A stretch of DNA of 64,000 nucleotides from Hysterangium stoloniferum (lineage: Eukaryota; Basidiomycota; Agaricomycetes; Hysterangiales; Hysterangiaceae), in assembly GCA_015178975.1 (NCBI GenBank), contig WHVD01000001.1:2170001-2234000 (forward strand). Reading direction: 5' to 3'. The notes under the pieces were generated by a model. It saw nothing but the letters and a program-made list of their open reading frames with translations, made no database searches and was not told the origin of the DNA. The position numbers and the translations under genes were made by a program. This document shows, in pieces, positions 3,282-60,383 of this stretch; the stretch's first letter is position 1; the number at the start of each line of letters is the position of its first letter.

Positions 3282-6007
3282 CTAGACTTGACGGGAAAAT
3301 GTTCGATGGGTGTGATCGTGTCCGAGTTCAATCATCCTCCCATATGTACCTAGATAGCTGAAAATAACGTATCCCCCTTATTCAAGAAGTTAATACTATT
3401 AAATAAGGATAACATCGATACTCACGGGTCTCGCTCAAATACTGTGTCCGGCCACACAGGGTCATTTATCCAACTGGGCTCCGCATCATAAGAAGCACGC
3501 AACTGCACATCTGGAACAGGTCCCCCCGAGGGGCCAGAAATATAACGTGGAGAAGTAGGCTCAAACAGGAATATAGTACGCGGTTCCACATCTCCGGAGT
3601 GACTAAATTACTCTGTCAGGCTCTGACATGGATGAAGGGGGAAGTGAAACAAACGAATTCTGAGGCATTTCCACAACTACTCTTGTCCCCCAGTGGAATA
3701 CTGTTGTCACAAAGGGTTCAATATCATCTCCAATAGACGTCTGTGCTTACTGATCATCAACTCGTGTGGAGGGACACCATTCATCCCATTTTTCTCAATG
3801 TAAAGTGGTGCGTATGCTCTCCATGCTTTCTGCACTTCAAACGACGGGCCGAATTGTCCGAAACTGACATATGGCCGGCAGAAATCTTCGATGTTGGCTT
3901 CGCCAATATCATAGGTATATCTACGCGGCGGAAAACTGAACAACGATCGGGTCTGCTAGCTCGAAAAATACCTTCTCATTGGTTTTCCACCTCGTATTGT
4001 TACACTCTCACGCTCGTCTAGATATGGACACTCTTCCTCGTGGAGGTAAACCAAAACCTCGACTAGGGGTGCTATACCGAGGGTGTCAGAGAACCACTCA
4101 TGCAGATTCCCACACATTACAAAATCGCCTGTAACTTTATCCCGATAGCCCACGTCCCATAGAGCGAGGGACCCCAGATCTCCACCCTTGATAAAGCCCG
4201 TGATTGATTCCAGAAACCCGAAGTCCAGTAGTTGATTGGCCAATTGACGAATGGTGCGCGAGCTTCGAAGTTGTTGATCCATTAAAGCCGTGCCGAGACA
4301 CCATAATTCCACAGCGGACATGAATAAGTCTACGATGGAATCCGGTGATGATGGATTGATCCTAGAGTAACCGGTATAAATACCGGGACTCCATCTCCCA
4401 TAGTACCCGGACTGGCCACGGCTGCGCAGTGTTCCGGTGTACACAAGCTTCAGACGACGGCAATTGGCAGGACAGTCTGTGACAGTGACAATTGAATCAC
4501 CGGGAAGTTGAAACTGAATAGACAAAGTTAACATTGACATCTGATGTCAGTGGAATTAACGAACAAGGGAGTAAGTTGCAATGTCGTTGTTTGAACAGAA
4601 ATCAACTAATTCCTAATGTCACATTGTGACATCAGCATTTGCAGGAGAGAAGGTATCCAAGTGCGTCACATTGTAAGAATCCCTCTAAGATATATCGCGT
4701 TAGCTTGTAAATGTCGCGAGTAATTTTATTCACCATGTCCCATAGTCCCAAAATGGTTTCTCTCACATTGAATGATCTAGTGCGTTCGAGCCATTTGCAT
4801 GCGTCCTCAGGTTCAGTGCCTGGATTACGGAAAACTTGGAAAAGTACATTGTCTTGTGCGTTACTGTAGCCAAAGAACGCAGCAATGCTAGGGTTCCTGA
4901 ACATGAATGTGATTGGACTACTTGGGCTATTTAGTCTGATGTGTTGCATTCTTACCATACGTCTCGATAGGAAGTGAGGTCGCGTTGGAACTATATCAAA
5001 AGTGTGATATGTTGCAAATAGTTTCTGAAATCCAAACCAGCCAAAAACGGGACTCGTACCTTTTTGCGTCTCAAATCCCACGTGGGTCTCCCGCCTTCGT
5101 ACATTTTGACCAATACCCGCTTACCGTCACTTTCAGTCTTCGCTTCACAAAGTGTGACACTCCACCGCAAGGTGACCCCATGATTGCCTGCCTTTTCATA
5201 GTCATAATCATTGTGGTTCGCGACCGATAAGGTGCGCAACAGTTGCAAGTCCCTTCGATCGACCAAATACTGTCTCATTATGATAAACCCACGGACATGA
5301 TCTTTGAGATGACAGAACGGCCGTACGCGTTCACTAATATGGTTTCTTCGTCCCGTGACCGACGAAAACGAATCAAGGATGATGTCGTCCATTCTAGTAT
5401 CATCGACGGCTACGAGCTGAGCAACGGCTAATGAAGTATCCAACAATAAACACATCTAAGAACCAATATGCAGACGAACGACTTTGAGTGTCACTTTCAG
5501 CACGCATCATTGCTTCTTTCTCTGCTTCTTCCAATCGCCTTTCCAGTTTGGCGATAGACTTATCTCGTTGTCGCATCCAAGATACGACGTGTGCTTTAAG
5601 ACCTTTTCTTGGCTTGTATGACCTTGCAAGCGCAAGAACATCCTCAAGTGCACTGAAAACAATCGATATATTCGTCAAGTAGTGAGTCTCAAGTCCTCAC
5701 TTCTGATACTCGTCCAATATAGTTTTGAAATCGTCCGGGATGTCCTCCCACTTCCCCCTCAGCTGATCGTGGAAAGCGACGAGGCGACGTCCAGTGGTTC
5801 GGACAAGGTTATTCAACCTCTCGTTTTGCTCCCCGCTTGCCTGGTGATTGTGAATCATGATCCACATTAGCTCTTAAACTGGTGTTGATGCAGACGACCT
5901 ACCTTTACAACGTTCATAATCTCCAAAACAAGGGTCGCTGCACTCTTTAAGCCAGGTACTGGAACGGCATCGCCAGCGACTTTGACAACAATAGCTGCAA
6001 TGTCCAT
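3282..6007 (-). CDS. MLKL-N-terminal-like, kinase-like fungal protein, copy 1 (apparently intact)
   Basis: A multi-exon gene of about 740 residues. Exons as read: 5903-6007, 5701-5840, 5480-5652, 5060-5409, 5024 to about 4640, about 4540-3972, 3935-3751, 3700-3655, 3602-3426, 3357-3282. Every placed junction keeps frame and has GT...AG; the exon 5/6 junction is not settled. The start ATG lies in ACCATGG. Residues 1-35 carry AGDAVPVPGLKSAATLV, a hallmark of the helical MLKL-N-terminal-like domain of many agaricomycete proteins; a charged helix (LERRLEEAEKEA) follows. Exons 4-5 resemble a kinase N-lobe: VLVKMYEG, then SIAAFFGYS, then LFQVFRNP. I see no HRD or DFG motif, so catalysis is unlikely. 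The C-terminal part holds LWDVGYRDKVTG. Membrane-acting cell-death role is inference from the family; alternative: an orphan signalling scaffold. Confidence 0.65.
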
Positions 6008-6400
6008 GGTCGATGGTCGATGATCTTAGTAGATGGTGAGGGATAGTCGCTCTTTGGCACGAGGCGCTGTATTTACTGTTGGCTGTGCCCTGGGATGGAG
6101 CGCCGGGTCAGTAGGGGAAATGCAGTCAGTGTTCATCCAACAGCGACACACATATATTCAAAGGCCGTAATTATGGTGTGGACTTTGTCCGCAGTGGAAC
6201 TTCTGGAATATAGTAGATTAGATAGATCATTCGTCATTAAACAAAAACCGCACGATTTTTTCAATGGTTTGTCGAATAAAATGAAAGTACCATGATGTGC
6301 TAACGGACATATGGCGTTGTAGCGATAGGTCAGTTGTGCCTTGGCTAATACAGAATAAAGATGTATAAGACGGCGTCGTAATAAAATCGATTGGAAAAAG
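6008..6400. promoter_or_regulatory. 5' flank of MLKL-like copy 1
   Basis: This gap lies between the divergent MLKL-like gene (minus) and seven-helix relic (plus), so it probably holds the promoter of the former. It is conserved in all units (GGAGCGCCGGGTCAGTAG near 6100, GATCATTCGTCATTAAA near 6225, GCGTTGTAGCGATAGGTCAG near 6312). The match to 54322-54720 is almost perfect. No clear TATA box could be assigned. Confidence 0.35.
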
Positions 6401-8990: not shown

Positions 8991-9261
8991 TGTTAAATTT
9001 GATGATGAAACACACCTTTTTATAGGGGGAGTCCACCAATTATTGCAACTTTTCATATGAAGATGCTAATTGTGGACCATGCATTTAGAGGTTAATGTGT
9101 GTCAGAACCACTATACACCTCCCAGAGCACCAAACCTATATTGTCAGGAGGTGCTACACTAACTGACACAAGATATCGAGACACAATTACTTTCACTACA
9201 AGCTTATTAAACCCTTGTAGATTGTGTATTGCAATAGAGTCAACTCATACTATTTTTAATA
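8991..9261 (+). mobile_element. 272-bp LTR-like repeat, copy 1, TSD TCAAC
   Basis: It begins TGTTAAATTTGATGATG and ends CTATTTTTAATA. The 5-bp direct repeat TCAAC is at 8986-8990 and 9262-9266 (a 6-bp reading, ATCAAC, is also possible). Paralogous positions near 18028 and 51490 lack it. A TATA-like TTTTTATAGGGG lies 30 bp inside. The same family occurs at 25855, 59550 and 60976. Solo LTR is favoured over MITE because the ends are not good inverted repeats. Confidence 0.7.
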
Positions 9262-9363
9262 TCAACATTCACGTATCCTTACATCTTCTGTTCACAATTT
9301 AATTATGGGCAGAGCGCCAAAGCTCCAGTAAATAAAGAGCTTTTATATCTCAGAATGATATAG

Positions 9364-12005
9364 CTAGACTTGACGGGAAAATGTTCGATGGGTGTGATCG
9401 TGTCCAAGTTTAATAATCCTCCCATATGCACCTAGGTAGCTGAAAATAACGTATCCACCTTATTCAAGACGTTAATACTATTAAAAAAGGACAACGTCGA
9501 CACTCACGGGTCTGGCTCAAATACCGTGTCCGGCCACACAGGGTCATGTATCCAACTGGGCTCCGCATCATAAGAAGCGCGCAACTGCACATCCAGGACA
9601 GGTGCCCCCGAGGGGCCAGAAATATAACGCGGAGAAGTAGGCTCAAACAGGAATATGGTACGCGGTTCCACATCTCCGGAGTGGCTAAATTACTCTGTCA
9701 GGCTCTCACATTGATGAAGGGGGAACTGAGACAAACAGGTTTTGAGGCATTTCCACAACTACTTGTGTCTCCCATTCGTTTACTATTCCCACAAAGGGTT
9801 CAATATCATTTCCAAAAGACTTCTGTGCTTACTGATCATCAACTCGTGTGGAGAGACACCCTTGATCCGATTTTCTTCTATGTAAAGCGGTGCGTATGCT
9901 CTCCATGCTCTCTGCACTTCACACCAGGGCCAGCAGAAATATTCGAGCCAGACATAAGGCCGGCAGAAATGTTCGATACTGACTTCGCCAGTATCATAAG
10001 TATATCTACGCGGCAGAAAACTGAGCAACGATTGGGTCAGTGTGCTAGCTCGAAAAATACCTTCTCATTGGTTTTCCACCTCGTAGGGTTACACTCTCAC
10101 GCTCGTATAAATATCTAAACTCTTCCTCGTGGAGGTAAACCCCAACCTCGACTGAGGGTTCCATACCGATGGTTTCAGAGAACCACTCATGTAGATTCCC
10201 ACATACTACAAAACCCCCTGTAACTTTATCCCGATAGCCCACGTCCCACAAAGCGATGGACCCCAGATCTCCCTCCTCGATGTCGCCCGTGATTGGTTGC
10301 AGAAACCCGAAGTCCAGTATTTGATTGGCCAATTGATGAATGGTGTGCGAGCTTCGAAGTTGTTGATCCATTAAAGCAGTGCCGAGATACGATGAATCCA
10401 CGTTGTACATGAATAAGTCTACGATAGAGTCGGGTGATGATGGATTGATCCTAAAGTCACCGGTATAAATACCGGGAAGCCATCTCCCATAGTACCCTGG
10501 GGTCCGGAACAGTGTTCCGGTAAACACAAGCTTCAAATGATGGCGATTGCCAGGACAGTCTGTGACAGTCACAATTGAATCACCGGGATTTAAAAACTGA
10601 ATAGACAAAGTTATCATTGACATCTGATGTTAGTCGAATTAACGAACGAGCTTTTCAATTCGAAATTCGCTGTTGGAACAGAGCAAGTAATATCATTCAC
10701 CATGTCCCACAGTCCCAAAATGGTTTCTCTCAGACCGGATAATCTGGTGCGTTCGAGCCAATTGCATGCGTCCTCAGGTTCAGTGCCCGGATTACGGAAA
10801 ACTTGGAAAAGTACATTGTCTTGTGCGTTACTGTAGCCCAAGAACTCAACAACGCTAGGATCCCTGAACAAGGATGTGATTGGACTACTTGGGTTATTTA
10901 ATCTGATGTGTCTCATTCTTACCACACGTCTTGATAGGAAGTGAGGTCGCGTTGGAACTATATCAAAAGTGTGACATGTTGCAAATATTTTCTGAAATCC
11001 AAACCAGCCAAAAGAGAACTCGTACCTCTTTGTGTCTCAAATCCCATGTGGGTCTCCCGCCTTCGTACATTTTGACCAATACCGACTTACCGTCACTTTC
11101 AGCCTTGGCTTCACAAAGTTTGACACTCCACCGCAAGGCGACTCGATTATTTCCTGCCTTTTCATCATCATAATGATTATGTTTCGCGATCGATATGGTG
11201 CGTAACACTTGGAAATTCCTTCTATGAACCAACCACTATATAATTACTATAAGCCAACGGGCTTGATCTTTGAGATGTCAGAATGAGCGTACGTGTTCAC
11301 TAATATCGTTTCTTCCTCGGACCGTGACCGATGAAAACGAATCAAGGATACCGCGTAATTGACGTATGATATCGACCATTCTGGTATCATCGACGGCTAC
11401 GAGTTGAGCGACGGCGAATGAGGTATCCAGCGAAAAATACATCTAAGAGCCAATATGTATCACGAACAACTCTGAGTGTCGCTTTCAGCACGCACCATTG
11501 CCTCTTTCTCCGCTTCTTCCAATCGCCTTTCAAGTTTGGCGATAGACTTATCTCGTTGTCGCATCCAAGACACGACGTGTGCTTTAAGACCCTTTATTGG
11601 TGTGTATGACCGTGCAAGCAGAAGAATATCCTCGAGTGCACTGAAAACAATCGATCTATTCGTCAAGTACGGTTACCCAGTGAATTTCAAGTTCTAACTT
11701 CTGATAATTGTCCAATATAGTTTTGAAATCGTCCGGGATATTCTCCCACTTCCCCCTCAGCTGATCGTGGAAAGCGACGAGACGACGTCCAGTGGTGTGG
11801 ACAAGGTTATTCAATCTCTCGTTTTGCTCCCCGCTTGCCTAGTGATTGTGAATCATGATCCACATCAGCTCTTAAACTGGTGTTGATGCAGACGACCTAC
11901 CTTTATAACGTTCATAATCTCCAAAACCAGGGTCGCTGCACTCTTTAAGCCAGGTAATGGAACGGCATCGCCAGCGACTTTGACAACAATGGCTGCAATG
12001 TCCAT
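9364..12005 (-). pseudogene. MLKL-like copy 2
   Basis: All exons can be aligned to copy 1: first exon 11901-12005, coiled segment 11470-11640, kinase-like part 10700-11230, and C-terminal region with LWDVGYRDKVTG 10045-10623. Exon 4 carries a stop just before VHRRNFQVLR that is shared with copies 4-7, and a second upstream stop. Exon 5 lacks its last part (a deletion before about 10690). The C-terminal exons remain open. Likely non-functional unless the open downstream part is used alone. Confidence 0.6.
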
Positions 12006-12820
12006 GAGCGATAGCCGATGATCTTAGTAGAAAGTTGCTCTTTAGCACGTCGAGGCGCTGTATTTGCTGTTGGCTATGCCCTGGGACGGAGCGCCGGATC
12101 AGTAGATGAAATGCAGTGTTCATTCAACAGCGACACACTTATATTCAAAGGCCGTATTCACGGTGTGGACTGTGTCCTGGGTGGAACTGTTGGAATAAAA
12201 TGGATTAGATAGATCATTCGTCATTAAAAGAAAAACTGCACGATCTTACCAGTGGCCTATCAAGTCAAATGAAAGTGCCATGATGTGCTAATGGATATAT
12301 GGCACTGTAGCGATAGGTCAGTCGTGCCTTGGCCAATACAGCATAAAGATGTATGAGATAGCATTGTAATAAAATCGATTTCAAAAAGTAGTCTATGATT
12401 GAGATTTGCTTTTCGTGCTTTATTTGTTGGAATTTGCGGTGCTGCCATCCAAGCTGGCGCACTCGCTCTTCGTCACATTTGTCTCATCAATCATGTATGA
12501 TATAGCCATTTTGTATTCGAGTTCTGCTAAATTACACTGTGTGGATTATGCCTAAACAATTGTCTAAAATATATCAGTGCCGCAAAATGCACGAAGTGGG
12601 CCCTTCTGGGGTGGCCAATGCTGGAACGCGGGCTCGTTGTCGCTGACGAGGAGCGCGTTAGTATGGTACGGGGGGACGTTGCCGAAGGCAGCGCCGCGAT
12701 GGCGGGTTGGTGATGTGGTCGGGAAGTGACACCTGGCCTGAGGCTGGAGCAGTGTATTAGTGAAAGCAAGTAACATTTTGTTATCTCTGTTGTATTGGTT
12801 TCCTTACCTGGAGCGTCCCG
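12006..12820. other. 5' flank of MLKL-like copy 2 and conserved unit block; no gene
   Basis: It corresponds to 6008-6840 in the first unit. It carries the same landmarks (GTCATTAAAAGAAAAACTG near 12220, GATTGAGATTTGCTTTTCG near 12400, GTTGCCGAAGGCAGCG near 12680). A roughly 66-bp piece present in units 1, 4 and 5 is missing just before 12820, as in the last unit at 61475. Confidence 0.35.
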
Positions 12821-13560
12821 TGGGCTTCTCTCATTAATACAAGATCAATGTCATTCATTAAGTCAACAACTTAAAAGGTTTGCACCGTTTATCGAAGGAA
12901 CAACAAGTTGTTTATAGTTCTATCAATCGTATTAGCACTAGCGGTATTTGTAAGTTTGCTCGTGATGGGACCAGGCCTTTATATGCGAGTTTTGAATTTT
13001 CACGAAAACAATATTTCCACCTTGTTGTTAATATCCGATAGGGTCAGCACTGCGGTTCGGATTCACCGGTTGTTTTTCTGTCGATAGAATGTCACCAAGG
13101 TTTGCATTTGGAGTGCTGCCGTTGCTGATCTACGAAACAATTCTTTGCTTCCTCGTGTTATGGAAGGCCATGCAGAATTCCGGGGATGGATATGGGTCTT
13201 CATTTTTATCAGAAATGGTACATGACAGGTAAGCAGGGTGTCCAAAGTTTCCTTGAAAGCATGGGCTTAAAAAAAAGCACCTGTCTAGTCACATTTACTT
13301 CGTTGGGTATGTCCGTCACATTTCACATTTTGTACACTTTCAAACTCTGTTTTTCCAGTATCTTCACCGTTCTCTGTCTTGACTCCACCCTCTACTGCGC
13401 CCCTGGGGCATGTTCATCATATCGTAAGTTAAACCACTTTTGCTTATTCATGCTCGAGGGGAGAATATGTATTTAGATAAGAATATACCATACCATGCGC
13501 GATGGGATGCTGACTCCTGGTGAATACCATGGAATAGGCTGAATTGTTGAAATCTTCTCA
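12820..13560 (+). pseudogene. Seven-helix (DUF6533-type) membrane protein relic T2
   Basis: Pieces in order: VYRRNNK (about 12888), a hydrophobic helix, an intron, GFTGCFSVDRM (about 13060), FAFGVLPLLIYETILC, MVHDR with a donor (about 13222), FTVLCLDSTLYC (about 13365-13400), and an IPCAMG-like last exon (about 13492). The order GC...P...YETIL...LY...IPC.MG matches the second half of DUF6533-type seven-helix proteins. The first helices are not recognisable and the last exon is interrupted, so I call it a relic. Confidence 0.5.
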
Positions 13561-14555
13561 TGACACAACTGTTACGCCTATAGCCTTTTTACCATCGACA
13601 GGCTACCGGCTCATCAAAGGGAAGTGAAAATCACCACCGTAACTCCGGCCCTGGATGAGTTCTACAGATTCCACACTGTAATCAGGGAGCAGATCGGGCA
13701 GTAGATTTGCCACACACTAGATTCGGTACTGATCCTCAGTGACGTCACGGTAGCGGATGAATTTAATTCTTCCTGGGCGCTCCTTGCTTCTTCCCAGTCG
13801 TTCATGTCATCCCGAAGGGTGACCTTATTTCCCCCGTACGAATGCGTAGCTGACCAATTTCAATGATTGCCGCTGCAATGAAATTCACCGGACTGCTGAA
13901 CTGATCAATATAAGATTAAATAATCAAAGATTCATGTGTTTTGGCAAGTATTTAGCGAAGATGTGTAAAATCTCTTGCACGAATATTTGAAATAAATTCG
14001 GATAAGATATATTAACTTTGTTGTTTTCCATGATTTGGCCGATTCACCAATATGTCCCGTTGGGGATGCAAAAGTCCTGCCACACTCCCTCGCACCACAG
14101 CGTGCGCGGGGCACATGACGCAGGACCAAAAGTGCCTCGAACAATGCTAACCAACAACAAACAAACCAAACACAGCGACGCGTCCCGGCAACTTAGCATT
14201 TGATCAGGAACCGGTGTTTCGGCAAAGTCTTCGCATGGGCGAAATACGGCCACCTCATTCCGAACGGCTGAGCTCATATAGAGTCGAACCGTTCTCAACA
14301 GAGACTACTCCATATTGTGAGACTGTGATGGTTATTGGTTCATGGCAAATCAAGATGCATGATTCCTACCTTCTGTTTTTACTATCATGTATAAATATAT
14401 ATTATGAATCATCTTTAAGTTTGAGTTGATTCTGGGTATTTATTAACTAGCTATTCTCACTCGGAATGTCGGAATGTACCCTTGACTGCTTCGAATAGTG
14501 GGTGGGAACGGAGCAAGAAGAAACGGGTCCGAAACTTAACCTTCGTGCAATGGGG
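13560..14555. other. Gene-poor 3' flank, near-identical to 46440-47520
   Basis: There are long stretches of near identity with the fourth unit, including ATTTGAAATAAATTCGG and the ACCAACAACAAACAAACC stretch (about 14149). The partner carries a roughly 57-bp extra piece near 46995. Short open frames here do not resemble proteins I know. This looks like recently duplicated non-coding DNA. Confidence 0.45.
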
Positions 14556-14559
14556 AGGC

Positions 14560-15118
14560 AGGTTCAGAGCCCGGATTACGGAAAACTTGAAAAAGTACAT
14601 TGTCTTGTGTGTGCTGCTGTAGCCCAAGAACGGAGCAATGCTAGGGTCCCTGAACATGAATGATTGGACTACTTGGACTATTTAATCTGATGTGTTGCAT
14701 TCTTCCCACACGTCTTGAAAATGAGGTAGCGTGGAAACTATATCAAAGTGTGATATGTTGCAAATAGTTTCTGAAATTCAAACCAGCCAAAACAGAACTC
14801 GTACCTCTTTCTGTGTCAAATCCCAAGTGGGTCTCCCGCCTCATACATTTTGACCAAAACCGGCGTGCCGTCACTTTCAGTCTTCGCATCACAAAGTTTA
14901 ACACTCCACCGCAAGGTGACCTGATGATTTCCCGCCTTTTCAAAATATTAATCATTGTGGTTTGCGACCGGTAGGGTGTGTAACAGTTGCAAGTTCTCAA
15001 ATACTGTCTCATTACGATAAGCTCACGGGCATGATTTTTGAGATGACAGAACGGGCGTACGCGTTCACTAATATCGTTTCTGCCTCTGCCTCTGCCGTGA
15101 TGGACGACAACGAATCAA
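14560..15118 (-). pseudogene. Partial MLKL-like copy P1 (exons 4-5 only)
   Basis: Minus-strand sequence matches exon 5 (GYSSTHKTMYFFKF) and exon 4 (MRQYL, CNCYTPYRSQTTMI) of the MLKL-like genes. All exons 5' and 3' of these are missing. At about 15118 homology to exon 4 ends and the unassigned conserved block begins, the same junction as in P2 and P4. The MRQYL form groups it with copies 1 and 3 rather than with copies carrying the shared stop. Confidence 0.5.
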
Positions 15119-15670
15119 GTAAAATGACGTGCTAAGGGGGATTAGCCATTGATCGTCTTTCTTCAGTTGGTAATATCGCTGCATCCACCTTCTTCCTCTT
15201 TATCGCATGTAGTCCCACATAATATTAAATCATACATTGTAGTTACATAGGCTGTGTTGCCTTTACTTACACTCCCTGTGGGCATCCCAAATTCTCCCTC
15301 GCCTGGGTAATGTAATTCATCAACATCATCATAGAATCATTACACTGTGTTGGATCTTTGGGACGAGCTCCGCATGCAAAATGTCATGGACTCTGAGAGT
15401 AACCATATATCTGTTGCGCGCCGCTGCTACTCAAAGAAACTCTCGTACCCCCATATCATTCTAGACATTTATGACCAATCTTGACAGTTAGTTGCAGGTT
15501 AGAAAATAATATCCCATCGATCCTTCTCTGATCCGAATGCTGCATGTTGCAGTGGTGCTTTATCGGGCGACGTTCATTATTATGTTCACAGCAAACATAT
15601 ATGTATTGCATGGATGCGTGTATGCGTGCAATTATTATTATATAACGTACATCCCACATCCTCCATCATA
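15119..15670. other. Unassigned conserved block between MLKL-like fragment and Ubp14-like relic
   Basis: The block repeats at 39511-40005, 48850-49385, 63606-64000 and partly 26600-27000. On the minus strand one frame gives DDVDELHYPGEGEFGMPTGS followed by a GTAAGT donor, and another gives HAIKRKKVDAA. Some frame is broken in every copy, so a decayed gene is possible, but I cannot assign a family. Confidence 0.35.
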
Positions 15671-15671
15671 G

Positions 15672-17720: not shown

Positions 17721-17722
17721 AC

Positions 17723-17977: not shown

Positions 17978-18127
17978 GTCACACAGTTACGGCGAAGAAC
18001 TACTTTTTTTGTAATTATTTTGAAAATTAACATTCACGTATCTTACATCTTCTGTTCACAATTGAATTATGGGCAGAACTCCAGAGCTCCAGTAAACAAA
18101 GGGTTTTTATATCACAGAATGATATAG

Positions 18128-20861: not shown

Positions 20862-20904
20862 GAGTGATGGTCGATGATCTTAGTAGATGGTGAGGGATAG
20901 TCGC

Positions 20905-35749: not shown

Positions 35750-35948
35750 GACAGTGATCAACAGCGTTTATACTATCCTCACCGCAGAACTATGTGCCTG
35801 AAGTCAAGAGTGGGCATCTTGCCCCTGAGACTTTCCTAGAGCGTGCTAAGGGCACGTAGCCACCCCACATTTTATTGCCCTTCCAGACAGTCATTCAACA
35901 TGGCATGAGCAGATATGTGATTAACCAGTTGAGGTGCTGGTGCAGTTC

Positions 35949-38965: not shown

Positions 38966-38984
38966 GTGCTATGAGGAGGCGGGT

Positions 38985-42040: not shown

Positions 42041-42189
42041 ACACAGTTACGGCGAAGAACTACTTTTTTTGTAGTTATTTGTGAAAATTAACATTGACGT
42101 ATTCTTACATCTTCTGTTCACAATTGAATTATGGGCCGAGGTACAGAGCTCCAGTAAATAAAGAGTTTTTATATCTCAGAATGATATGA

Positions 42190-46460: not shown

Positions 46461-47515
46461 ATCTTCTCATGACACAACTGTTGCGCCTATAACCTTTACC
46501 ATCGACAGGCTACCGGCTCATCAAAGGGAAGTGAAAATCACCACCGTAACTCCGGCCCTGGATGAGTTCTACAGATTCCACACTGTAATCAGGGAGCAGA
46601 TCGGGCAGCAGATTTGCCACACTAGATTTGGTACTGATCCTCAGTGACGTCACGGTAGCGGATGAGGTATTTAATTCTTCCTGGGCGCTCCTTGCTTCTT
46701 CCCAGTTGTTCATCTCATCCCGAAGGGTGGGTGGCCTTATTTCCCCCATACGAATCCGTAGCTGACCAATTTCAATGATTGCGGCTGCAATGAAATTCAC
46801 CGGACTGCTGAACTGATCAATATAAGATTAAATAATCAAAGATTCATGTGTTTTGGCAAGTATTTAGCGAAGATGTGTAAAATCTCTTGCACGAATATTT
46901 GAAATAAATTCGGATAAGATATATTAACTTTGTTGTTTTCCATGATTTGGCCTATTCACCAATATGTTCCGTTGGGGATGCAAAAATCCTGCCACACTGA
47001 ACAACCTTGCAAGGTTTGAACGGGAAATATCTTTTGTGCGCCCCTCACACTAGTACAGCGTGCGCGGGGCACATGACGCGGGACCAAAAGTGCCTCGAAC
47101 AATGCTAACCAACAACAAACAAACCAAACACAGCGACGCGTCCCGGCAACTTAGCATTTGATCAGGAACCGGTGTTTCGGCAAAGTCTTCGCATGGGGGA
47201 AATACGGCCACCTCATTCCGAACGGCTGAGCTCATATAGAGTCGAACCGTTCTCAACAGATACTACTCCATATTGTGAGACTGTGATGGTTATTGGTTCA
47301 TGGCAAATCAAGACGCATGATTCGTTCCTTCTGTTTTTACTATCATGTATAAATATATATTATGAATCATCTTTAAGTTTGAGTTGATTCTGGGTATTTA
47401 TTAACTAGCTATTCTCACTCGGAATGTCGGAATGTACCCATGACTGCTTCGAATAGTGGGTGGGAACGGAGCAAGACGAAACGGGTCCGAAACTTAACCT
47501 TCGTGCAATGGGGAG
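46460..47515. other. Gene-poor 3' flank, near-identical to 13560-14555
   Basis: See the partner. A minus-strand frame 46510-46800 (MNFIAAAIIEIGQLRIRMG) is open here but not in the partner, so it is not supported as a gene. Confidence 0.4.
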
Positions 47516-47519
47516 GCAG

Positions 47520-48330
47520 GTCCTGATTACGGAAAACTTGAAAAAGTACATTGTCTTGTGTGTTGGTGTAGCCCAAGAACGGAGCAATGCTAGGGTCTCT
47601 TAACATGAATGATTGGACTACTTGGACAATTTAATCTGATGTATTGCATTCTTCCCACGGGTCTTGAAAATGAGGTAGCGTGGAAACTATATCAAAGTGT
47701 GATATGTTGAAAACAGTTTCTGAAATTCAAACCAGCAAAACAGAACTCGTACCTTTTGTGTCTCAAATCCCACGTGGGTCTCCCGCCTTCGTACATTTTG
47801 ACCAATACCGACTTACCGTCACTTTCAGTCTTCGCTTCACAAAGCTTGACATATTACAAATATAGTATCTCAGTCGACACGAAGATTGTAAATCGACTGA
47901 TATAAAAGATCGAACATTGGTAGTGCTCGTATTTATGTGGATGCGAACAATGAATCCCATGGCACAAAAGAGACGGTAGGACAATGGGATTGTAACAATA
48001 GAAAACGGACAAAAAGAAATATTTACGGTTCGTGGTCAAAGTGTTATTGTTGTTTGTGACATCGTGTTTATCCTCGTGTTTATTCAGGGCATGCGTAAGA
48101 CACAGTTCATAACATGACATTCCATCGCAAGGCGACCCGATCATTTCCTGCCTTTTCATCGTCATAATAATTATGGTTCGCGATGCGTAGCAGTTGCAAG
48201 TCCCTTCGATCGACCAAATACTTATTAAGACGAGCCCAAGGGCATGACCTTTGGGTGTGACAGAACGGGCGTACGCGTTCACTAAGATCGTTTCTTCCTC
48301 TGCCCGTGACTGACGAAAACGAGTCAAGTA
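47520..48330 (-). pseudogene. Partial MLKL-like copy P3 (exons 4-5), split by an insertion
   Basis: Exon 5 remains at 47525-47720 and exon 4 remains at 47750-47850 and 48115-48330. The gap is a 263-bp insertion. Upstream of exon 4 it continues into sequence from another part of the unit instead of the block used by P1, P2 and P4. Confidence 0.5.
47852..48114 (+). mobile_element. LTR-like insertion, 263 bp, TSD TGACA
   Basis: Perfect flanking repeat TGACA (47847-47851, 48115-48119; TGACAT is also possible). The uninterrupted site TTTGACA(T/C)TCCACCGC is found near 59245 and 53443. One end reads TATTACAAATATAG and the other CATAACA. A CTCAGTCGACAC stretch resembles the reverse strand of the insertion at 2211-2578, suggesting a related family. 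Confidence 0.6.
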
Positions 48331-48850
48331 TCTGTGCTAACTGACATACGGCTTTGTAGTGATAGGTCAGTTGTGCCTTCTGATCAGTTGTCTTGCCTTG
48401 TCCTTTGCCAATTGGAGCTAGTATTGTGTATCGGGTAAAACGTGAGACGTATGGATGAGATGAAACTTGTGATATGTTTGTAACCCCTTGCAAGAATGGA
48501 TATGACTTCAACTCAAGTTTCTCTGTTAAATTTCCCACTGCTACAACACGACTACCTGGTGTCGTGAGAGCAGGTCAGGATCACCGATGTTAGGTATATG
48601 TTCAGTTCAGTAATATTACTTTTTACACAATTGGAGTGGTGCAATCTGGCGAGCCAGTAGTAGCTTCTGTGTATTCAACACAAGCTAGCCTGTATAGGTC
48701 AAGTTTCATACCTAAAATTCGGCATCCAAATCTTCGACCAATAACATTTTCAAGAACAAGTCACTATTTAACGAAGAAGATGATAGAAATAACGCCATCA
48801 TTTCAAAGTGTAAGTGTACAATCCAACAAAACAGTGATATTGTTGTAAAA
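48331..48850. other. Mosaic of unit fragments; no gene
   Basis: It contains a piece of the MLKL-like 5' flank (GACATACGGCTTTGTAGTG near 48342) and of the 21446-type ORF (GATGAGATGAAACTTGTGA near 48454), then about 300 bp of unique sequence with a 70-codon frame I do not recognise. Confidence 0.35.
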
Positions 48851-49385
48851 TATAATAATTGCGTGAGGTGATTAGCCATTGATCGTGTTTCTTCAGTCAG
48901 CAATCCCATTGCATCTACCTTCTTCCTCGTCATCACGTGTAGTCCCACATAAAATTATATAATGCATTGTAGTCACATAGGCTTTGTTTTGCCTTTACTT
49001 ACGCTCCCTGTGCAAATCACAAATTCTACCGGGTCTCCACAATGTAATTTATCAACATCACTATAGAATCATTACACTGCGTTGAATATTTGGAAAGAGC
49101 TCCGCATGCAAAATGGCATGGACTCTAATGGTAACCATATATATGTTTCGCTTCGCTCGAAACCCTCGTACCCCCATATCATTCTAGACATTTATGACCA
49201 ATCTCGATAGTTAGTTGCAGGTTAGAAAATAATATCCCATCGATCCTTCTCCGATCCGAATCTTGGTGCTTTATCGTGAGATGTTTATTATTATGTTCAC
49301 AGCAAACATATATGTATCGTATGCATGCATGTATGCGTGTAGTTACTTGCCATATAACGGACATCCCATATCCTCCATCATATTT
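48850..49385. other. Unassigned conserved block (copy)
   Basis: It matches 15130-15690. On the minus strand one frame reads SDVDKLHCGDPVEFVICTGS before a GTAAGT donor. See the 15119 entry. Confidence 0.35.
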
Positions 49386-49387
49386 AT

Positions 49388-51440
49388 CTACTCCGCAGAG
49401 GGTTCAGGCTCACTGTGACTTGCCGCCGCAACTTTCGACCGCAGCAAAGGGTTATTATATTTGTAATGACAAAGGAAAGAGCGAACGATGGTGTCTAATA
49501 TCATCAAGACACCCGGAACCTCCATATGTCCTATCGACCACAACAACCGCCTTCCCGGTGCAAATAATGCCTTCTGACAAGGACCGGTAGGGAATGGCTG
49601 CGACCGGGGCAGTATTGAATATTGGGAGAGATGGGGCTTTCGAACGGGAGAGGCCGGAGTTAAGCCAGGCAATGCAGGACGAGAAGAGCTGTTGGGTGCA
49701 GGTACAGGCCTGGGTGAGAAAGGATAGGGGATAGTATATGTGGAAAGCTGGAAGTGTGGATATTGATTGGAGGGTGGATGCCATGTCGCCACTGTTTCCC
49801 AGATCTCTGAGTCCTGTCATTCCTTGAGAGAAGACAGGCTCGAACCCATTGGGTGAGTATGACGTACCTCAGGATGCCTCGAATCTTCAAGGAATGGCCT
49901 CCCTCCTTGTTCATGACACGGGTTTGAAGGGAGAATAACCACCGCTGACCACGTTTTGTAGGCACCCACCTCACGTGCAGAACATTTGTCGCATATACAA
50001 CAAAGATGTCAGGAAAGCCACAACACGTGCACGTCTGGAAACACATCCACGACCTGGTCGGTATTAGCCTATGGTACTGAGACGACACTATGAAAGACTC
50101 ACGTCTGTGGTGGAACCCCTGCCTCGCACCGCAGGCAGGAATACTCATCCTGTCCCCTACGCGCACACGAAGCTTCCCCCGCGTATACAACACCTCTCTA
50201 AAGCCGGGGTTGGATACCCACGCTCAAATCATCATGCTCATCTACAAGCTAGCGCGCACACCCTTGCACTACATACACAGCGACTCTTGTTCCACCGCAA
50301 AGCAGAGGATGACAGTAGACTCCGGCTCCGGCTCCGGGACGTGTTTTTAACTTGCTGACGTAGGACTTGAGAAGAATATATATGCGAAGAACTCTTGCAC
50401 GTCTTGCTGTTTCGTCATCGATATTTCCTCGTGGACTCTTCCGATGAGGGATTTGAACATGGTGGGTTTGGAAGGGTTCTTGGGATACGGGCAGTGGCGT
50501 CGGGGATGGACGAGGTGATCATCGTCGATGGCATTGGTTCCATGAGCTCACCAGCACTTCGACGAGGGTAGGGACACCGGAGGTGTGAGACGGGAAATGG
50601 CTGCGAGGGTGGGATAACCAGCCTGAACGGATTCGGTCCGCGATGTTGCGCATCTGAAAGTCAAAACAGGATATGGGGAGCTCTTCGGTGCAGGAACAGG
50701 CGCGGGTGAGAAAGGATCAGGGATGGTATGTGCGGAAGGCTGGAAGTGTGAGTAAAGATGCCGATGCCATGTAGCAGCTGTTTCCGAGATTGCGAAGTCC
50801 CGTCAGTCTTGCAGGGGAGACAGGCTCGAAAAAATTACACAAGTATGACGGACCTCAGGATGATTCGACTCGTCAAGAAATGACCTCGTTCCTTGTCCAT
50901 GACAAGCCCAATATCTCACTGTCGGCAAACACTCAATAATTGTCCTTCTCCGTGTCCTCGACAGTAGCAAGGTTCTTAAGCGGCGGTCCGCGACTGTTCT
51001 ATCACCAACGCCACCAACTCAATCATCAAAACTTCCCAGCTCATACTCAGCTGCTCACAGAAGAAAATAAACAACCTACTCACTCGTTTTGGGTTCGGTT
51101 CCAACATGCTCTTCACATACACGGATACCCAAGCATCCCACAATGCAACTGCACATGCATCCGGGTCACATTGCCCCCCACACACTCTCTATCCAAGCAC
51201 GGGAGGCACACGTCGATGCCTTCAAGGAGATCCTATTAGATCGCGTGGTTGGGGCGTAAGCATAATAAGTGAAATCTGATTTCCATTGGAAGAACGGAGG
51301 ACATACTTCTTTGTCAAAGCATTGTGGTGTTTCTTCTCTCTGAAAAGAGTCTGAAAGACGGGGACCGGGAAGACTAGAAAGTCTGGGAGGAAGAATGAGC
51401 GCAAGACGCAGGACTCCAGCACACGTTACGCGATGTCACA
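49388..51440 (-). pseudogene. Ubp14/USP5-like deubiquitinase relic U5
   Basis: The clearest copy. GIDVCLPCLDREC (about 51185-51230), then EPPLKNLATVED in another frame; Cys box LTGLRNLGNSCYMAS (about 50765-50812); QQD region (about 50390-50440); FPDIFVVYATN and HVRWVPTK (about 49965-50010); second Cys-box-like TGLRDLGNSGDMAS with Cys to Gly (about 49778-49820); UBA-like segment with CQKALFA (about 49555-49600). The order matches Ubp14/USP5 (zinc finger, Cys box, catalytic middle, UBA). The His box is missing downstream. Several frame changes show it is a pseudogene. Confidence 0.65.
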
Positions 51441-51586
51441 CAGTTACGGCGAAAAACTACTTTTTTTGTAATTATTTTTGAAAATTAACATTCACGTATT
51501 CTTACATCCTTTGTTCACAATTTGATTATGGGCAGAGCTCCAGAGCTCCAGTAAATAAAGGGCTTTTATATTACAAAATGATATAG

Positions 51587-54321
51587 CTAGACTTGACGGG
51601 AAAATGTTCGCTAGGTTTGATCGTGTCCGAGTTTAATCCTCCTCCCATATGCACCTAGGTAGCTGAAAATAACGTATCCACCTTGTTCAAGACGTTAATG
51701 CTATTAAATAAGGACAACATCGACGCTTACGAGTCTCGCTCAAATACCGTGTCCGGCCACACAGGGTCATTTATCCAACTGGGCTCCGCATCATAAGAAG
51801 CGCGCAACTGCACATCTAGGACAGCCCCCCCCGAGGGGCTAGAAGTATGACGTGGAGAAGTAGGCTCAAACAGGAATATGGTACGCGGTTCCACTTCTCC
51901 GGAGTGACTAGATTACTCTGTCAGGCTCGGACATTGATGAAGGGGGAAATGAAACTTACAAATTCTGAGGCATTTCCACAACTACTCTTGTCTCCAAGTA
52001 TATTACTATTGTCACAATGGGTTCAATATCATTTCCAAAAGACTTTTGTACTTACTGATCATCAATTCATGTGGAGGGATACCCTTGATCCCATTCTCCT
52101 CTATGTAAAGCGGTGCGTATGCTCTCTCCATGCTTTCTGCCCTTCAGACGACGGGAAACCTCCGACATTGACAATGGGCCGGCAGAACTCTTCGATGGTG
52201 CCTTCGCCAATATCATAGGTATATCTACGCGGCAGAAAACTGAGCAACGATCGGGTCAGTGTGCTAGCTCGAAAAATACCTCCTCATTGGTTTTCCACCT
52301 CGTATTGTTACACTCTCACCCTCGTCTAAATATCTAAACTCTCGCTTGTTGAGATCAACACCAACCCCGACGAAGGGTTCTATACCGACGGTTTCATAGA
52401 ACCACTCATGTAGATTCCCACATACTACAAAACCCCCTGTAACTTTATCCCGATAGCCCACGTCCCACAAAGCGATGGACCCCAGATCTCCATCCTCGAT
52501 GTCGCCCGTGATTGGTTGCAGAAACCCGAAGTCCAGTATTTGATTGGCCAATTGATGAATGGTGTGCGAGCTTCGAAGTTGTTCATCCATTAAAGCGGTG
52601 CCGAGATACCATGACTCCACTTTGGACGCGAATAAGCTTACGATGGTCTCGGGTGATGATGGATTGATCCTAGAGTCACCGGGATACCATCTCCCATAGT
52701 ACCCTGGGGCACGGTTGAGCAGTGTTCCGGTGTACACAAGCTTCAGATGACGGCGATTGGCAGGACTGTGTGTGACAGTGACAATTGAATCACCGGGAAG
52801 ATAAAACTGAATAGACAAAGTTATAATTGACGTCTGATGTCAGTCGAATTAACGAACAAGCCAGTCAATTTCAATGTCATTGTTTGAACAGAAATCCCCT
52901 AATTCCTAATGTCACATTGTCACATCAGCATTTGTGGGAGAGAATCCAAGCACGTCACATTGAAAGAATCCCTCTAAAATATATCGCGTTAGCTTGTAAA
53001 TATCGCGAGTAATTTCATTCACCATCTCCCATAGTCCCAAAATGGTTTCTCTCACATCGGATGCTCTAGTGCGTTCGAGCCATTTGCATGCGTCCTCAGA
53101 TTCAGGGCCCGGATTACGGAAAACTTGGAAAAGTACATTGTCTCGTGCGTTACTGTAGCCCAAGAACTCAGCAATGCTAGGGTCCCTGAACATGAGTGTG
53201 ATTGGACTACTTGGGTTATTTAGTTTGATGCATTCTTACCACACGTCTTGATAGGAAGTGAGGTCGTGTTGAAACTATATCAAAAGTGGGATACGTTGCA
53301 AATAGTGTCGGAAACCCAAACCAGCCAAAGCAGAACTCGTACCTCTTTGCGTCTCAAATCCCACGTGGGTCTCCCGCCTTCGTATATTTTAACCAATACC
53401 GACTTACTGTCACTTTCAGTCTTCGCCTCACAAAGTTTGACACTCCACCGCAAGGCGACTCGATGATTTCCTGCCTTTTCATCATCATAATGATTATGGT
53501 TCGCGATCGATATGGTCCGTAACACTTGGAAATTCCTTCTATGAACCAAACACTATATAATTACCTATAAGTCCACGGGCATGATCTTTGACATGACAAA
53601 ACGAGCGTACGTGTTCACTAATATCGTTTCTTCCTCTGACCGTGACCGATGAAAACGAATCAAGGATACCGCGTAATTGACGTATGATATAGTCCATTCT
53701 GGTATCATCGACGGCTACGAGTTGAGCGACGGCTAATGAAGTATCCAGCAAAATGCACATCTAAGAGCCAATATATAACGAACGACTCTGAGTGTCACTT
53801 TCAGCACGTACCATTGCCTCTTTCTCCGCTTCTTCCAATCGCCTTTGCAGTCTGGTGATAGACCTATCTCGTTGTCGCATCCAAGACACGACGTGTGCTT
53901 TAAGACCTTTTCTTGGTGTGTATGACCTTGCAAGCGCAAGAACATCCTCAAGTGCACTGAAAACAATCGATTTATTAGTCAAGTACGGTTACCCAGTGAG
54001 TCGCAAGTTCTCACTTCTGATACTCGTCTAATATAGTTTTGAAATCGTCCGGGATGTCCTCCCACTTCCCCCTCAGCTGATCGTGGAAAGCGACGAGGCG
54101 ACGTCCAGTGGTCCGGACAAGGGTATTCAATCTCTCGTTTTGCTCCCCGCTTGCCTGGTGATAGTGAATCATGATCTACATCAGCTCTTAAACTGGTGTT
54201 GATGCAGACGACCTACCTTTATAACGTTCATAATCTCCAAAACAAGGGTCGCTGCACTCTTTAAACCAGGTACTGGAACGGCATCGCCAGCGACTTTGAC
54301 AACAATAGCTGCAATGTCCAT
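51587..54321 (-). pseudogene. MLKL-like copy 6
   Basis: First exon about 54217-54321 with ACCATGG start context as in copy 1; coiled segment about 53790-53960; C-terminal domain 52264-52818. It carries the shared exon 4 stop and the small exon 5 deletion found in copy 5. Its 5' end and upstream flank are nearly identical to copy 1, while its 3' half resembles copies 3 and 5: a mosaic. Confidence 0.6.
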
Positions 54322-55140
54322 GGTCGATGGTCGATGATCTTAGTAGATGGTGAGGGATAGTCGCTCTTTGGCACGAGGCGCTGTATTTACTGTTGGCTGT
54401 GCCCTGGGATGGAGCGCCGGGTCAGTAGGGGAAATGCAGTCAGTGTTCATCCAATAGCGACACACATATATTCAAAGGCCGTAATTATGGTGTGGACTTT
54501 GTGCGTAGTAGAACTTCTGGAATTCTAATGGATTAGATAGATAACTCGTCATTGAACAAAAACCGCACGATTTTTTCAATTGTTTGTCGAATAAAATGAA
54601 AGTACCATAATGTGCTAACGAACATATGGCGTTGTAGCGATAGGTCAGTTGTGCCTTGTCTAATATAGAATAAAGATGTATAAGACGGCGTCGTAATAAA
54701 ATCGATTGGAAAAAGTAGTCTATGATTGAGATTTGCTTTTCGGGCTTTATTTGTTGGAATTTGCGGTGCTGCTATCCAAGCACTCGCTCGTCGTCACCTT
54801 TGTCTCACCAATCATGTATGATATAGCTATTTTTTATTCCAATTCTGCTAAATTACACGATGTGCGTTATGCCAAAAAAAAATGCATAAAATATATCAGT
54901 GCCGCAAAATGCGCCAAGTGTGCCCTTCTGGGGTGGCGCGGAACGATGGCACGCGAGCTCGTTGTCGCTGATGACGAGCGCGTTAGCATGGCATGGGAGG
55001 ACGTTGCCGAAGGCAGCGCCGCGATGACGGGTTGGCGATGTGGCCGGGAAGTGGCACCCGGCCTCGAGACTGGAGCAGGGTATTAGTGAAAAGTAAGTAA
55101 CATTTTGTTGTCTCTGTTGTATTGGTTTTCTTACCTGGAG
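54322..55140. other. 5' flank of MLKL-like copy 6 and conserved unit block; no gene
   Basis: Nearly identical to 6008-6840. See that entry. Confidence 0.35.
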
Positions 55141-55142
55141 CG

Positions 55143-56640: not shown

Positions 56641-57025
56641 TTACTGAGTAACCGTACCTGACGAATAAAAAAATTTTTTTTTCAGTGCACTTGAGGATGT
56701 TCTTGCGCTTGCAAGGTCATACAAACCAAGTCAAGGTCTTAAATCACACGTGTCTTGGATGCGACAACGCGACAAGTCTATCGGCAAACTGGAAAGGCGA
56801 TTGGAAGAAGCGGAGAAAGAGGCCATGGTGCGTACTGAAAGTGACACTCAGAGTCGTTCGTTACATATTGGCTCTTAGATGTGCATTTTGCTGGATACTT
56901 CATTAGCCGTCGCTCAACTCGTAGCCGTCGATGATACCAGAATGGACGATACCATCCCCGATTCGTTTTCGTCGGCCACGGTCAGAGGAAGAAACGATAT
57001 TAGTGAACATGTACGCCCGTTCTTC
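56641..57025 (+). pseudogene. Inverted fragment of MLKL-like exons 3-4
   Basis: The plus strand carries the coiled segment (GKLERRLEEAEKEAM frame) and the start of exon 4 (DDTRMDDTIPDSF). It is the exact inverse of 59415-60060 in copy 7, including the odd A/T run in the intron, but without the 272-bp insertion there. It lies inside the broken Ubp14-like relic. Confidence 0.7.
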
Positions 57026-57245: not shown

Positions 57246-57369
57246 TTTTTGTAATTATTTTTGAAAATTAACATTCACGTATTCTTACATCTTCTGTTCA
57301 CAATTGAATTATGGGCAGAGCTCCAGAGCTCCAGCAAATAAAGGGTTTTTATATCACAAAATGATATAG

Positions 57370-60300
57370 CTAGACATGAAGGGAAGAAATGTTCGATGGG
57401 TGTGATCGTGTCCGAGTTTAATCCTCCTCCCATATGCACCTAGGTAGCTGAAAATAACATTTCCACCTGATTCAAGACGTCAATACTATTTAATAAGGAG
57501 AACATCGACACGCACCGGTCTGGCTCAAATACCGTGTCCGGCCACACAGGGTCATTTATCCAACTGGGCTCCGCATCATAAGAAGCGCGTAACTGCACAT
57601 CTAGAACAGGTCCCCCCGAGGGGCCAGAGATATAACGTGGAGAAGTAGGTTCAAACAGGAATATGGTACGCGGTTCCACGTCTCCGGAGTGACTAGATTA
57701 CTCTGTCAGGCTCTGACATTGATGAAGGGGGAAGTGAAACAAACAAGTTCTGAGGCATTTCCACCACTACTGTTGTCCTAAAGTAGTTTACTGTTGTCAC
57801 AAAGTGGTCAATATTATTCCCAAAAGACTTCTGTGCTTACTGATCATCAACTCATGTGGAAGGACACCCTTGATCCCATTTTCCTCCATGTAAAGGGGTG
57901 CGTATGCTCTCCACGCTTTCTGCACTTCAAACGACGGGACAAAGTCTGCGATATAGACACTGGGCCGGCAGAAATCTTTGATGCTGCCTTCGCCAATATC
58001 ATAGGTATATCTACGCGGCAGAAAACTGAACAACGATCGGGTCAGTGTGCTAGCTCGAAAAATACCTCTTCATTGGTTTTCCATCCCGTATTGTTACACT
58101 CTCACGCTCGTCTAAATATCCAGACCTATGGTTGCCGAGGTTAACACGAACCCCGACTAAGGGTTTTATACCGAGGGTTTCAGAGAACCACTCATGTAGA
58201 TTCCCACACACTACAAAATGGCCTGTAACTTTATCCCGATAGCCCACGTCCCACAAAGCGATGGACCCCAGATCTCCATCCTCGATAGAGCCCTCAATTG
58301 GTTCCAGAAACCCGAAGTCCAGTAGTTGATTGGCCAATTGATGAATGGTGTGCGAACTTCGAAGTTGTTCATCCATGAAAGCAGTGCCGAGACACCATGA
58401 ATCCACCTTGTTTACGAATAAGCGTACGATGGAATCTGCTGATGATGGATTGATCCTAGAGTGACCGGGATAAACACCGGGATACCATCGCTCATAGTAC
58501 CCTGGGGCACGGCTGACCAGTGTTCCGGTGTACACAAGCTTCAGATGACGGCGATTGGCAGGACAGTCTCTGACAGTGACAATTGAATCACCAGGCATAA
58601 AAAACTGAATAGACAAAGTTATGATTGACGCTGATGTCAGTGGAATTAACGAACAAGCGAGGCAATTTCAATGTCGTTGTTTGAACAGAAATCAACTAAT
58701 TCCTAATGTCACATTGTCACATCAGCATTTGCGGGAGAGAAGGTATCCAAGTACGTCACATTGTAAGAATCCCTCTAAAATATATCGCGTTAGCTTGTAA
58801 ATACTGCGAGTAATTTCATTCACCATGTCCCATAGTCCCAAAATGGTTTCTCTCGGACCGGATAATCTAGTGCTTTCGAGCCAATTGCATGCGTCCTCAG
58901 GTTCAGGGCCCGGATTACGGAAAACTTGGAATAGTACATTGCCTTGCGCGTTACTGTGGCCCAAGAACTCAGCAATGCTGGCGTCCCTGGACATAAATGT
59001 GATTGGACTACTTGGGTTATTTAATCTGATGTGTGACATTCTTACCACACGTCTTGATAGGAAGTGAGGTCCCGTTGAAACTATATCAAAAGCGTGATAC
59101 GTTGCAAATAGTTTGTGAAATCCACACCAGCCAAAGCAGAACTCGTACCTCTTTGTGTCTCAAATCCCACGTGGGCCTCCCGCCTTCGTACATTTTGACC
59201 AATACCGACTTACCGTCACTTTCAGCCTTTGCTTCACAAAGTTTGACATTCCACCGCAAGGCGACCGGATGGTGTTCTGCCTTTTCATCGTCATAATCAT
59301 TATGGTGCGCGATCGATATGGTGCGCAACACTTGGAAATTCCTTCTATGAACCAAACACTATATCATTACTATAAGCCCACGGGTATGATCTTTCAGATG
59401 ACAGAACGGGCGTACATGTTCACTAATATCGTTTCTTCCTCTGACCGTGGCCGACGAAAACGAATCGGGGATGGTATCGTCCATTCTGGTATCATCGACG
59501 GCTACGAGTTGAGCGACGGCTAATGAAGTATCCAGCAAAATGCACATCTTGTTAAATTTGATGATGAAACACACCTTTTTATAGGGGGAGTCCACCAATT
59601 ATTGCAACTTTTCATATGAAGATGCTAATTGTGGACCATGCATTTGGAGGTTAATGTGTGTCAGAACCACTATACACCTCCCAGAGCATCCAACCTATAT
59701 TGTCAGGAGGTGCTACACTAACTGACACAAGATATTGAGACACAAAGTACTTTTATTACAAGCTTATTAAACCCTTGTATATTGTGTATTGCAATAGAGT
59801 CAACTCATACTATTTTTAATACATCTAAGAGCCAATATGTAACGAACGACTCTGAGTGTCACTTTCAGTACGCACCATGGCCTCTTTCTCCGCTTCTTCC
59901 AATCGCCTTTCCAGTTTGCCGATAGACTTGTCGCGTTGTCGCATCCAAGACACGTGTGATTTAAGACCTTGACTTGGTTTGTATGACCTTGCAAGCGCAA
60001 GAACATCCTCAAGTGCACTGAAAAAAAAATTTTTTATTCGTCAGGTACGGTTACTCAGTGAGTCTCAAGTTCCCACTTCTGATAATCGTCCAATATAGCT
60101 TTGAAATTGCCCGGGATATTTTCCCACTTCCCCCTTAACTGATCGTGGAAAGCGACGAGGCGACGTCCAGTGGTCTGGACAAGGGTATTCAATCTCTCGT
60201 TTTGCTCCCCGCTTGCCTGGTGATTGTGAATCATCATCCACATCAACTCTTAAACTAGTGTTGATGCACACGACCCACCTTTATAACGTTCATAATCTCC

Positions 60301-60383
60301 AAAACAATGGTCGCTGCACTCTTTAAGCCAGGTACTGGAACGGCATCGCCAGCGACTTTGACAACAATGGCTGCAATGTCCAT
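57370..60383 (-). pseudogene. MLKL-like copy 7, split by an LTR-like insertion
   Basis: All exons are recognisable: first exon about 60279-60383, coiled segment 59830-60010, exon 4 59086-59520, C-terminal domain 58050-58616. The 272-bp repeat (59550-59821) sits in the intron between exons 3 and 4. The shared exon 4 stop is present. Intron 2 carries an A/T run (AAAAAAAAATTTTTTATTCG) seen only here and in the inverted fragment. Confidence 0.6.
59550..59821 (+). mobile_element. 272-bp LTR-like repeat, copy 3, TSD CATCT
   Basis: Perfect repeat CATCT (59545-59549, 59822-59826). The inverted paralogue at 56875-56885 is the empty site. Nearly identical to the copy at 25855, so both insertions are recent. 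Confidence 0.75.

Follow-up and report, generated by a model that had tools for sequence, protein, structure and literature searches.

The window analysed here, a stretch of 64,000 nucleotides from the basidiomycete Hysterangium stoloniferum (C1:2170001-2234000, in an assembly of 111 Mb and 554 contigs), carries seven full-span copies of one multi-exon gene, and we put about even confidence in the reading that these belong to a non-self-recognition family that is hypervariable behind a constant, helical-looking front part. All seven copies lie on the minus strand, and a BLAST search with copy 1 together with repeat finding also recovered four partial copies and further fragments, in agreement with what the initial annotation of this DNA had described. 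The window is itself a slice of a larger, megabase-scale array. The genome gives at least 150 matches to DUF6533, a family abundant in agaricomycetes, whereas 14 control genomes gave none, which indicates an agaricomycete source. Our comparisons used 27 copies, namely the seven in the window and 20 drawn from the best genome matches to copy 1 (L009-L028), which show pairwise identities of 87.5-100% (351 pairs, median 89.6%), far above chance. Under a model of 13 exons and 642 amino acids, codon comparison indicates that both ends of the protein are constrained and that codons 299-596 hold an excess of amino-acid change.

Selection and sequence exchange among the copies

Codon models (M1a versus M2a, implemented in our own code) were fitted to 18 open copies under the 13-exon model, with L022 left out as near-identical to window copy 2. 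The ratio of nonsynonymous to synonymous change (omega) was 0.38 in codons 1-132 and 0.58 in codons 133-298, where the positive class had p values of 0.12 and 0.08, respectively; it reached 1.15 in codons 299-596, with 16.2% of sites at an omega of 5.2 and a doubled log-likelihood difference (2ΔlnL) of 336.9, and was 0.40 with no positive class in codons 597-642. All but two of the 36 sites with a posterior above 0.95 (34/36) fall within codons 321-574. Because the copies recombine, 30-codon blocks were also given their own trees, and 4 of 22 blocks then passed Bonferroni correction, all within codons 301-480. The first gene model, which is discussed below, placed the signal in the back part as well: 5 of 25 blocks passed, all within its codons 391-660; the comparison of M1a with M2a over 25 copies gave a 2ΔlnL of 710, with codons 389-642 holding 49 of the 54 sites above 0.9; and its four open copies alone gave 30.6 for exons 6-9 (p = 2.3e-7) and 0.8 for exons 1-5 (p = 0.68). 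Pairwise omega under that model was low in exons 1-2 (0.26-0.34) and exon 10 (0.31) and came to about 0.9-1.2 in exons 6, 7, and 9, with an intron divergence of 0.07-0.16. Strongly conserved residues are interleaved with variable ones within one exon, and the LWDVGYRDKVTG region, which had been noted earlier as the C-terminal region of the protein, lies inside the hypervariable part and is itself a conserved stretch. The case for positive selection in the back part, as judged from these codon comparisons, is good but not beyond doubt.

The copies also exchange sequence, in addition to being gained and lost. Linkage (r2) among 135 two-state sites fell from 0.43 at distances below 20 bp to 0.03 above 800 bp, the proportion of pairs of sites showing all four combinations rose with distance from 0.27 to 0.95, and none of 1000 permutations was as extreme (0/1000). 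As linkage decays within a few hundred bases, the exchange proceeds in short tracts. In Mantel tests the matrices of most block pairs were uncorrelated, which a star-like history could also produce, and only the linkage decay shows exchange. Copies that are neighbours on C1 showed no greater similarity than copies lying far apart (r = -0.04, 15 copies). Thus, two features expected of a hypervariable recognition family are found here: exchange between its members, seen in the linkage decay, and replacements concentrated in one part of the protein with a positive class of sites, the latter coming out weaker in a minimum-change count that is described below. The selection pattern lends indirect weight to the tentative allorecognition role suggested by the initial annotation.

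Gene model and open copies

The first model, fitted to copy 1 alone (11 exons, 734 amino acids), left 4 of 27 copies open, and it was rejected since lesions concentrate at the edges of its exons and in the last one. Of distinct lesions, exons 1-2 had none, the 542-nt exon had two frameshifts and no stops, exon 5 (355 nt) had five frameshifts and eight stops, and the last exon had eight frameshifts. The revised model was built by alignment inspection and by dynamic programming that rewarded open frames across the 27 copies; new in it are introns of 69 and 59 nt that enclose a 35-nt exon, and a stop codon directly after exon 13. One further, putative intron of 57 nt (5326-5270), absent from the dynamic programming output, was added by hand because all 27 copies have GT and AG at its ends and because a shared TAG and 1-nt insertions lie inside it. 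The proportions of nonsynonymous and synonymous differences in this stretch (pN 0.130 and pS 0.233) are both raised, which is compatible with an intron but is no proof of one. The shared TAG (codon 191 of the first model) had been considered as the mark of a dead lineage, an idea rejected given the flanking GT and AG in every copy.

With the revised model, 19 of 27 copies are without a premature stop or frameshift, a share that does not stand for a genome-wide rate, as 20 of the 27 were picked from among the best matches to copy 1. Sixteen of the 19 have GT/GC-AG at every modelled border, and three (L014, L023, and window copy 7) are without the usual stop codon at the usual place. Within the window, copies 1, 3, 4, 5, and 7 are open and copies 2 and 6 are broken, so the claim that only copy 1 is whole does not survive. 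The initial annotation had also called the locus a birth-and-death cluster; this stands insofar as one multi-exon family forms a local cluster whose copies are gained and lost, and fails insofar as it implied a graveyard with a single live gene. A wrong exon model can, in other words, disguise a living array as a pseudogene graveyard.

The revised model receives independent support from other loci of the family, as an exon matching the 35-nt exon in size turned up at five of eight additional loci, two of the five being the divergent L034 and L042, and the open reading frames of the divergent L032 and L033 stop at the same place as the border of exon 7. In copy 1, which is read on the minus strand, exon 1 (5903-6007) contains the start codon and MDIAAIVVKVAGDAVPVPGLK and is supported by its open frame, GT donor, and low omega. 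It is followed by exons 2 (5701-5840) and 3 (5495-5652), also of the front part; the donor of exon 3 is probably GTGACA, chosen by lesion positions and variant comparison, with equal counts for GTGCTG. Exon 4 (5327-5427) precedes the putative 57-nt intron, and the middle part begins with exon 5 (5060-5269, placed by alignment), which contains VLVKMYEG. Dynamic programming over the 27 copies placed the 35-nt exon 6 (4956-4990; FQRDLTSYRDV-W), and exon 7 (4734-4896), which contains NPSIAAFFGYS and LGLWDM, ends at a GT in all 27 copies. Exon 8 is a putative micro-exon of 15 nt (4670-4684), with AG in 26 of 27 copies and a CTAAC-like branch site; it leaves 19 copies open versus 18 for a single longer exon (4896-4670), in which pN (0.051) against pS (0.116) favours coding. 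The hypervariable part begins with exon 9 (4565-4612) and continues through exon 10 (3972-4513), the largest hypervariable exon, which holds the conserved LWDVGYRDKVTG stretch, is supported by the selection tests, and is open in 25 of 27 copies. Exon 11 (3751-3935, with its acceptor at 3936 or 3921) and the small, hypervariable exon 12 (3655-3700) follow, and exon 13 (3422-3602, TGA at 3424-3422) forms the conserved end. The end of exon 13 is that of the best path and is accompanied by low omega; it scored 218.3 in the dynamic programming, and the runner-up end at 3330 scored 218.0.

The array in the window and in the genome

The aligned core of copy 1 lies at 3250-6100, and the other full-span copies lie at 9332-12091 (copy 2), 18098-21186 (copy 3), 28635-31865 (copy 4), 42158-44993 (copy 5), 51555-54414 (copy 6), and 57338-60477 (copy 7), giving a spacing of 5.8-13.4 kb between units. 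Copy 2 is broken by a 46-nt deletion and changed splice sites, and copy 6 by a frameshift near the end of exon 10 or in exon 11; copy 5 has a GC donor at exon 1 and its modelled exon 11 acceptor is without AG, and copy 7, open apart from its lost stop codon, has a 268-bp insertion within an intron. The partial copies are all on the minus strand. Those at 14559-15130, 47525-48331, and 63046-63617 lie some 2.5, 2.5, and 2.6 kb upstream of copies 2, 5, and 7, respectively, and the one at 38982-39505 lies some 7 kb upstream of copy 4. Repeat finding and BLAST placed an inverted gene fragment on the plus strand at 56655-57023. Homology between units runs beyond the gene into both flanks, and the flanks and partial copies are collinear, as in 12826-14903 with 45788-47851 and 15137-17722 with 48867-51439. 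A tandem duplication with a 231-bp period surrounds the start of copies 3 and 4 (20897-21327 and 31576-32020), and about 247 bp at 2750-2996 in the 3′ flank of copy 1 interrupt a region that is continuous in the other copies.

Searching the genome with the conserved last exon as the query recovered at least 150 matches, merging to at least 141 places, of which at least 64 lie on C1 between 1,797,369 and 2,810,508 (about 1.0 Mb); these counts are lower bounds, as 150 of 175 candidates were scored, and the query differed from the exon in one residue. The places on C1 form same-strand runs of up to 19 with a median spacing of 10.7 kb, and others lie on C113, C145, C140, C244, C198, and other contigs. 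A search with the front part gave 238 matches, counted exon by exon. The limits of 3282-60383 first proposed for the cluster therefore have to be abandoned, because flanks and partial copies repeat together with the genes and the family continues for about 1 Mb. No account of such an array was found in the literature searched, which was covered in part.

Only 2 of the 351 pairs among the 27 copies exceed 95% identity. Window copy 2 and L022 are 98.9% identical, and L022 is open where copy 2 has the 46-nt deletion; this pair is a recent duplication followed by loss. L023 (C198) and L024 (C145) have a rounded identity of 1.000 (100%) yet show two 1-nt reading differences, and could reflect contig overlap, two haplotypes, or duplication at a very recent date. 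A divergent sister group on C71, C210, C75, C21, and C90 includes L032, L033, and L043-L048, which share about 30-38% identity with the family in matched exons and keep the order of parts unchanged.

Possible function and relation to known systems

If the family does serve non-self recognition, its product would be an intracellular protein of about 642 residues with a conserved, helical-looking front, a middle resembling a kinase N-lobe that lacks catalytic motifs, and a C-terminal part bearing a hypervariable face. This face would bind a changing ligand, which might come from another individual, a virus, or a different microbe, or might be a guarded protein of the host. Binding would release the constant front, which would then serve as an executor that signals or disrupts membranes, in the manner of NLR or MLKL-type cell death. 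New faces would arise by gene conversion and unequal crossing-over, and the many open copies would constitute the repertoire. A bolder form of this reading, in which the family represents a class of its own that is neither NLR nor HET, with a helical front, a dead-kinase-like middle, a non-repeat hypervariable face, and a megabase-scale array that trades pieces and serves as a somatic-incompatibility or antiviral repertoire, is tentative and less than likely.

Parallels are known from other fungi. NWD genes are described as carrying hypervariable, positively selected repeats that exchange sequence (PMC4986451), and the present family resembles the NACHT-WD40 genes het-d, het-e, and het-r of Podospora in that one end, the effector, is constant and the other, used in recognition, is hypervariable, together with positive selection and exchange (PMC4986451); these likenesses hold to the extent that the ends of the present proteins act as proposed. 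It differs from NWD and NLR genes in that the window proteins gave no Pfam match to NACHT, NB-ARC, WD, ANK, or TPR, that variability lies in a non-repeat part, and that dozens of copies form a local array. The het-V protein PaMt2 of Podospora joins an MLKL executor to a TUDOR reader (PMC8229728), and an executor and a reader in one non-NLR protein is the architecture proposed here as well (PMC8229728); PaMt2, however, is a single locus with a known reader domain, whereas the variable part of the present family matches no known domain. Somatic incompatibility in basidiomycetes is described as poorly understood and modelled on ascomycetes (PMC8229728), and a large, clustered, fast-changing family with many open copies offers a concrete candidate for it. 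Were the reading correct, fungal recognition repertoires built from tandem duplication, gene conversion, and diversifying selection would extend past NLR-type receptors.

The N-terminal part is conserved and looks helical. In BaMLKL a leading helix stands ahead of the four-helix bundle (PMC9815663), and the present family is like BaMLKL and the HeLo-like and Goodbye-like domains in the N-terminal position of this part and in a similar-looking start that includes a leading helix (PMC9815663), together with one weak MLKL_N match in a paralogue; it is unlike them in that no profile over its cut-off assigns the family here. A true MLKL family of executors, with a four-helix bundle, an activating pseudokinase, and a variable C-terminal part meeting changing regulators such as pathogen inhibitors, is possible but unlikely. 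MLKL-like domains are reported as abundant in Basidiomycota (PMC9815663), the middle part reads as kinase-like, and one of eight joined N-terminal paralogue pieces (L033) matched PF22215 MLKL_N (E = 8e-4; 19.4 bits, below the 27-bit cut-off), although the unrelated family Mqo scored slightly better on that same piece. The remaining seven pieces gave no MLKL_N match, and neither did the window proteins, for which the Pfam search first recommended for the copy 1 protein returned no family at E ≤ 0.1 (one scan with a 656-residue model variant); NCBIfam and Pfam scans of the protein likewise assigned no family. A profile comparison of the family with the only exon in the genome above the MLKL_N cut-off (L049, C104:54340-54900; C104:54410, 30 bits) gave an hhalign score of 13.2, which 38 of 200 shuffles reached, and sequence searches of PDB gave no MLKL match, the best match being a myosin coiled coil (E = 0.0012). 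The description of the first exon as MLKL-like was thus not confirmed by these searches. L049 lies in an open frame of 891 residues, and a second relative is located at C104:15957.

The middle exons of the revised model can be read by eye as a β3-αC-β4-β5-αD order with the motifs VLVK, FQRDLTSYRDVW-NPSIA-GYS, and VLFQVF. The stretch VLVK..FQRDLTSYRDVWNPSIA..GYS can tentatively be read by eye as the β3 lysine, αC, and the H/N-P-x-I motif in order, and K24 and G60 are invariant in an alignment of five sequences (A5). Neither HRD nor DFG was seen in the translated copies. This part of the protein would follow a helical part, as the pseudokinase follows the four-helix bundle in animal and plant MLKL; the present protein differs from those in that neither Pfam nor PDB returned MLKL or kinases as a match and in having an extra hypervariable C-terminal part. 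None of four spliced pieces matched a kinase family in Pfam at E ≤ 10, and profile and single-sequence searches of PDB gave no kinase. The early suggestion of a kinase N-lobe without HRD or DFG accordingly agrees with the reading by eye and with the missing motifs, and finds no counterpart in Pfam or PDB.

Several results weigh against a recognition family with an executor front. Its splice sites were placed by comparison, in a model picked partly to clear lesions; MLKL membership is unproven, and no profile above its cut-off confirmed an executor domain; and structure prediction of the hypervariable exon from the seven window copies gave a predicted local distance difference test score (pLDDT) of 34.9 and no usable fold. 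Under the first model and with all 25 copies, exons 1-5 also showed a positive class (2ΔlnL 41.8, p = 8e-10), a signal that comes in part from stretches now called intron. Recombination inflates tree-based selection tests, and a tree-free minimum-change count gave 1.16 in the chosen variable segments, which is not above neutrality (p = 0.25), versus 0.53 in the rest (Fisher p = 1e-9). The last two points, together with the 8 of 27 copies that are broken, would suit passive expansion by unequal crossing-over, with a weakly constrained back part and a role that is mundane or absent. We consider this rather unlikely, given that the 30-codon blocks with their own trees keep strong positive classes, that conserved and variable residues alternate inside one exon, and that both ends are constrained.

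The recognition reading must also be set against a selfish or conflict family, whose members would be killers or drivers of the poison/antidote type diversifying to escape suppression. Local amplification, fast amino-acid change in one part, and many copies of which some are broken would fit such a family, which we nonetheless regard as improbable, as no paired antidote or dual transcript was seen and the constraint on the front part over 27 copies suits ordinary protein function. That the repeats are a transposable element carrying a captured gene is highly improbable despite the high copy number and several small insertions nearby, given the concentration of copies in one region, their long same-strand runs and collinear flanks, the gene-like constraint, and the lack of a transposase-like Pfam match among seven further window open reading frames scanned.

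Other repeats occur in the window. A 272-bp element is present in four places (8991-9261, 25855-26126, 59550-59821, and 60976-61242), three of which show 97-100% identity and the fourth 76%; in copy 7 it breaks an intron, and the matches to copy 1 on its two sides share a 9-bp overlap, a possible target-site duplication. A large inverted repeat (33677-35011 and 35753-37026) has arms that are 76-79% identical with about 740 bp between them, and the one open reading frame scanned in it gave no convincing Pfam match. Short tandem arrays lie at 1728-2087 (196-bp units) and 2214-2307 (34-bp units).

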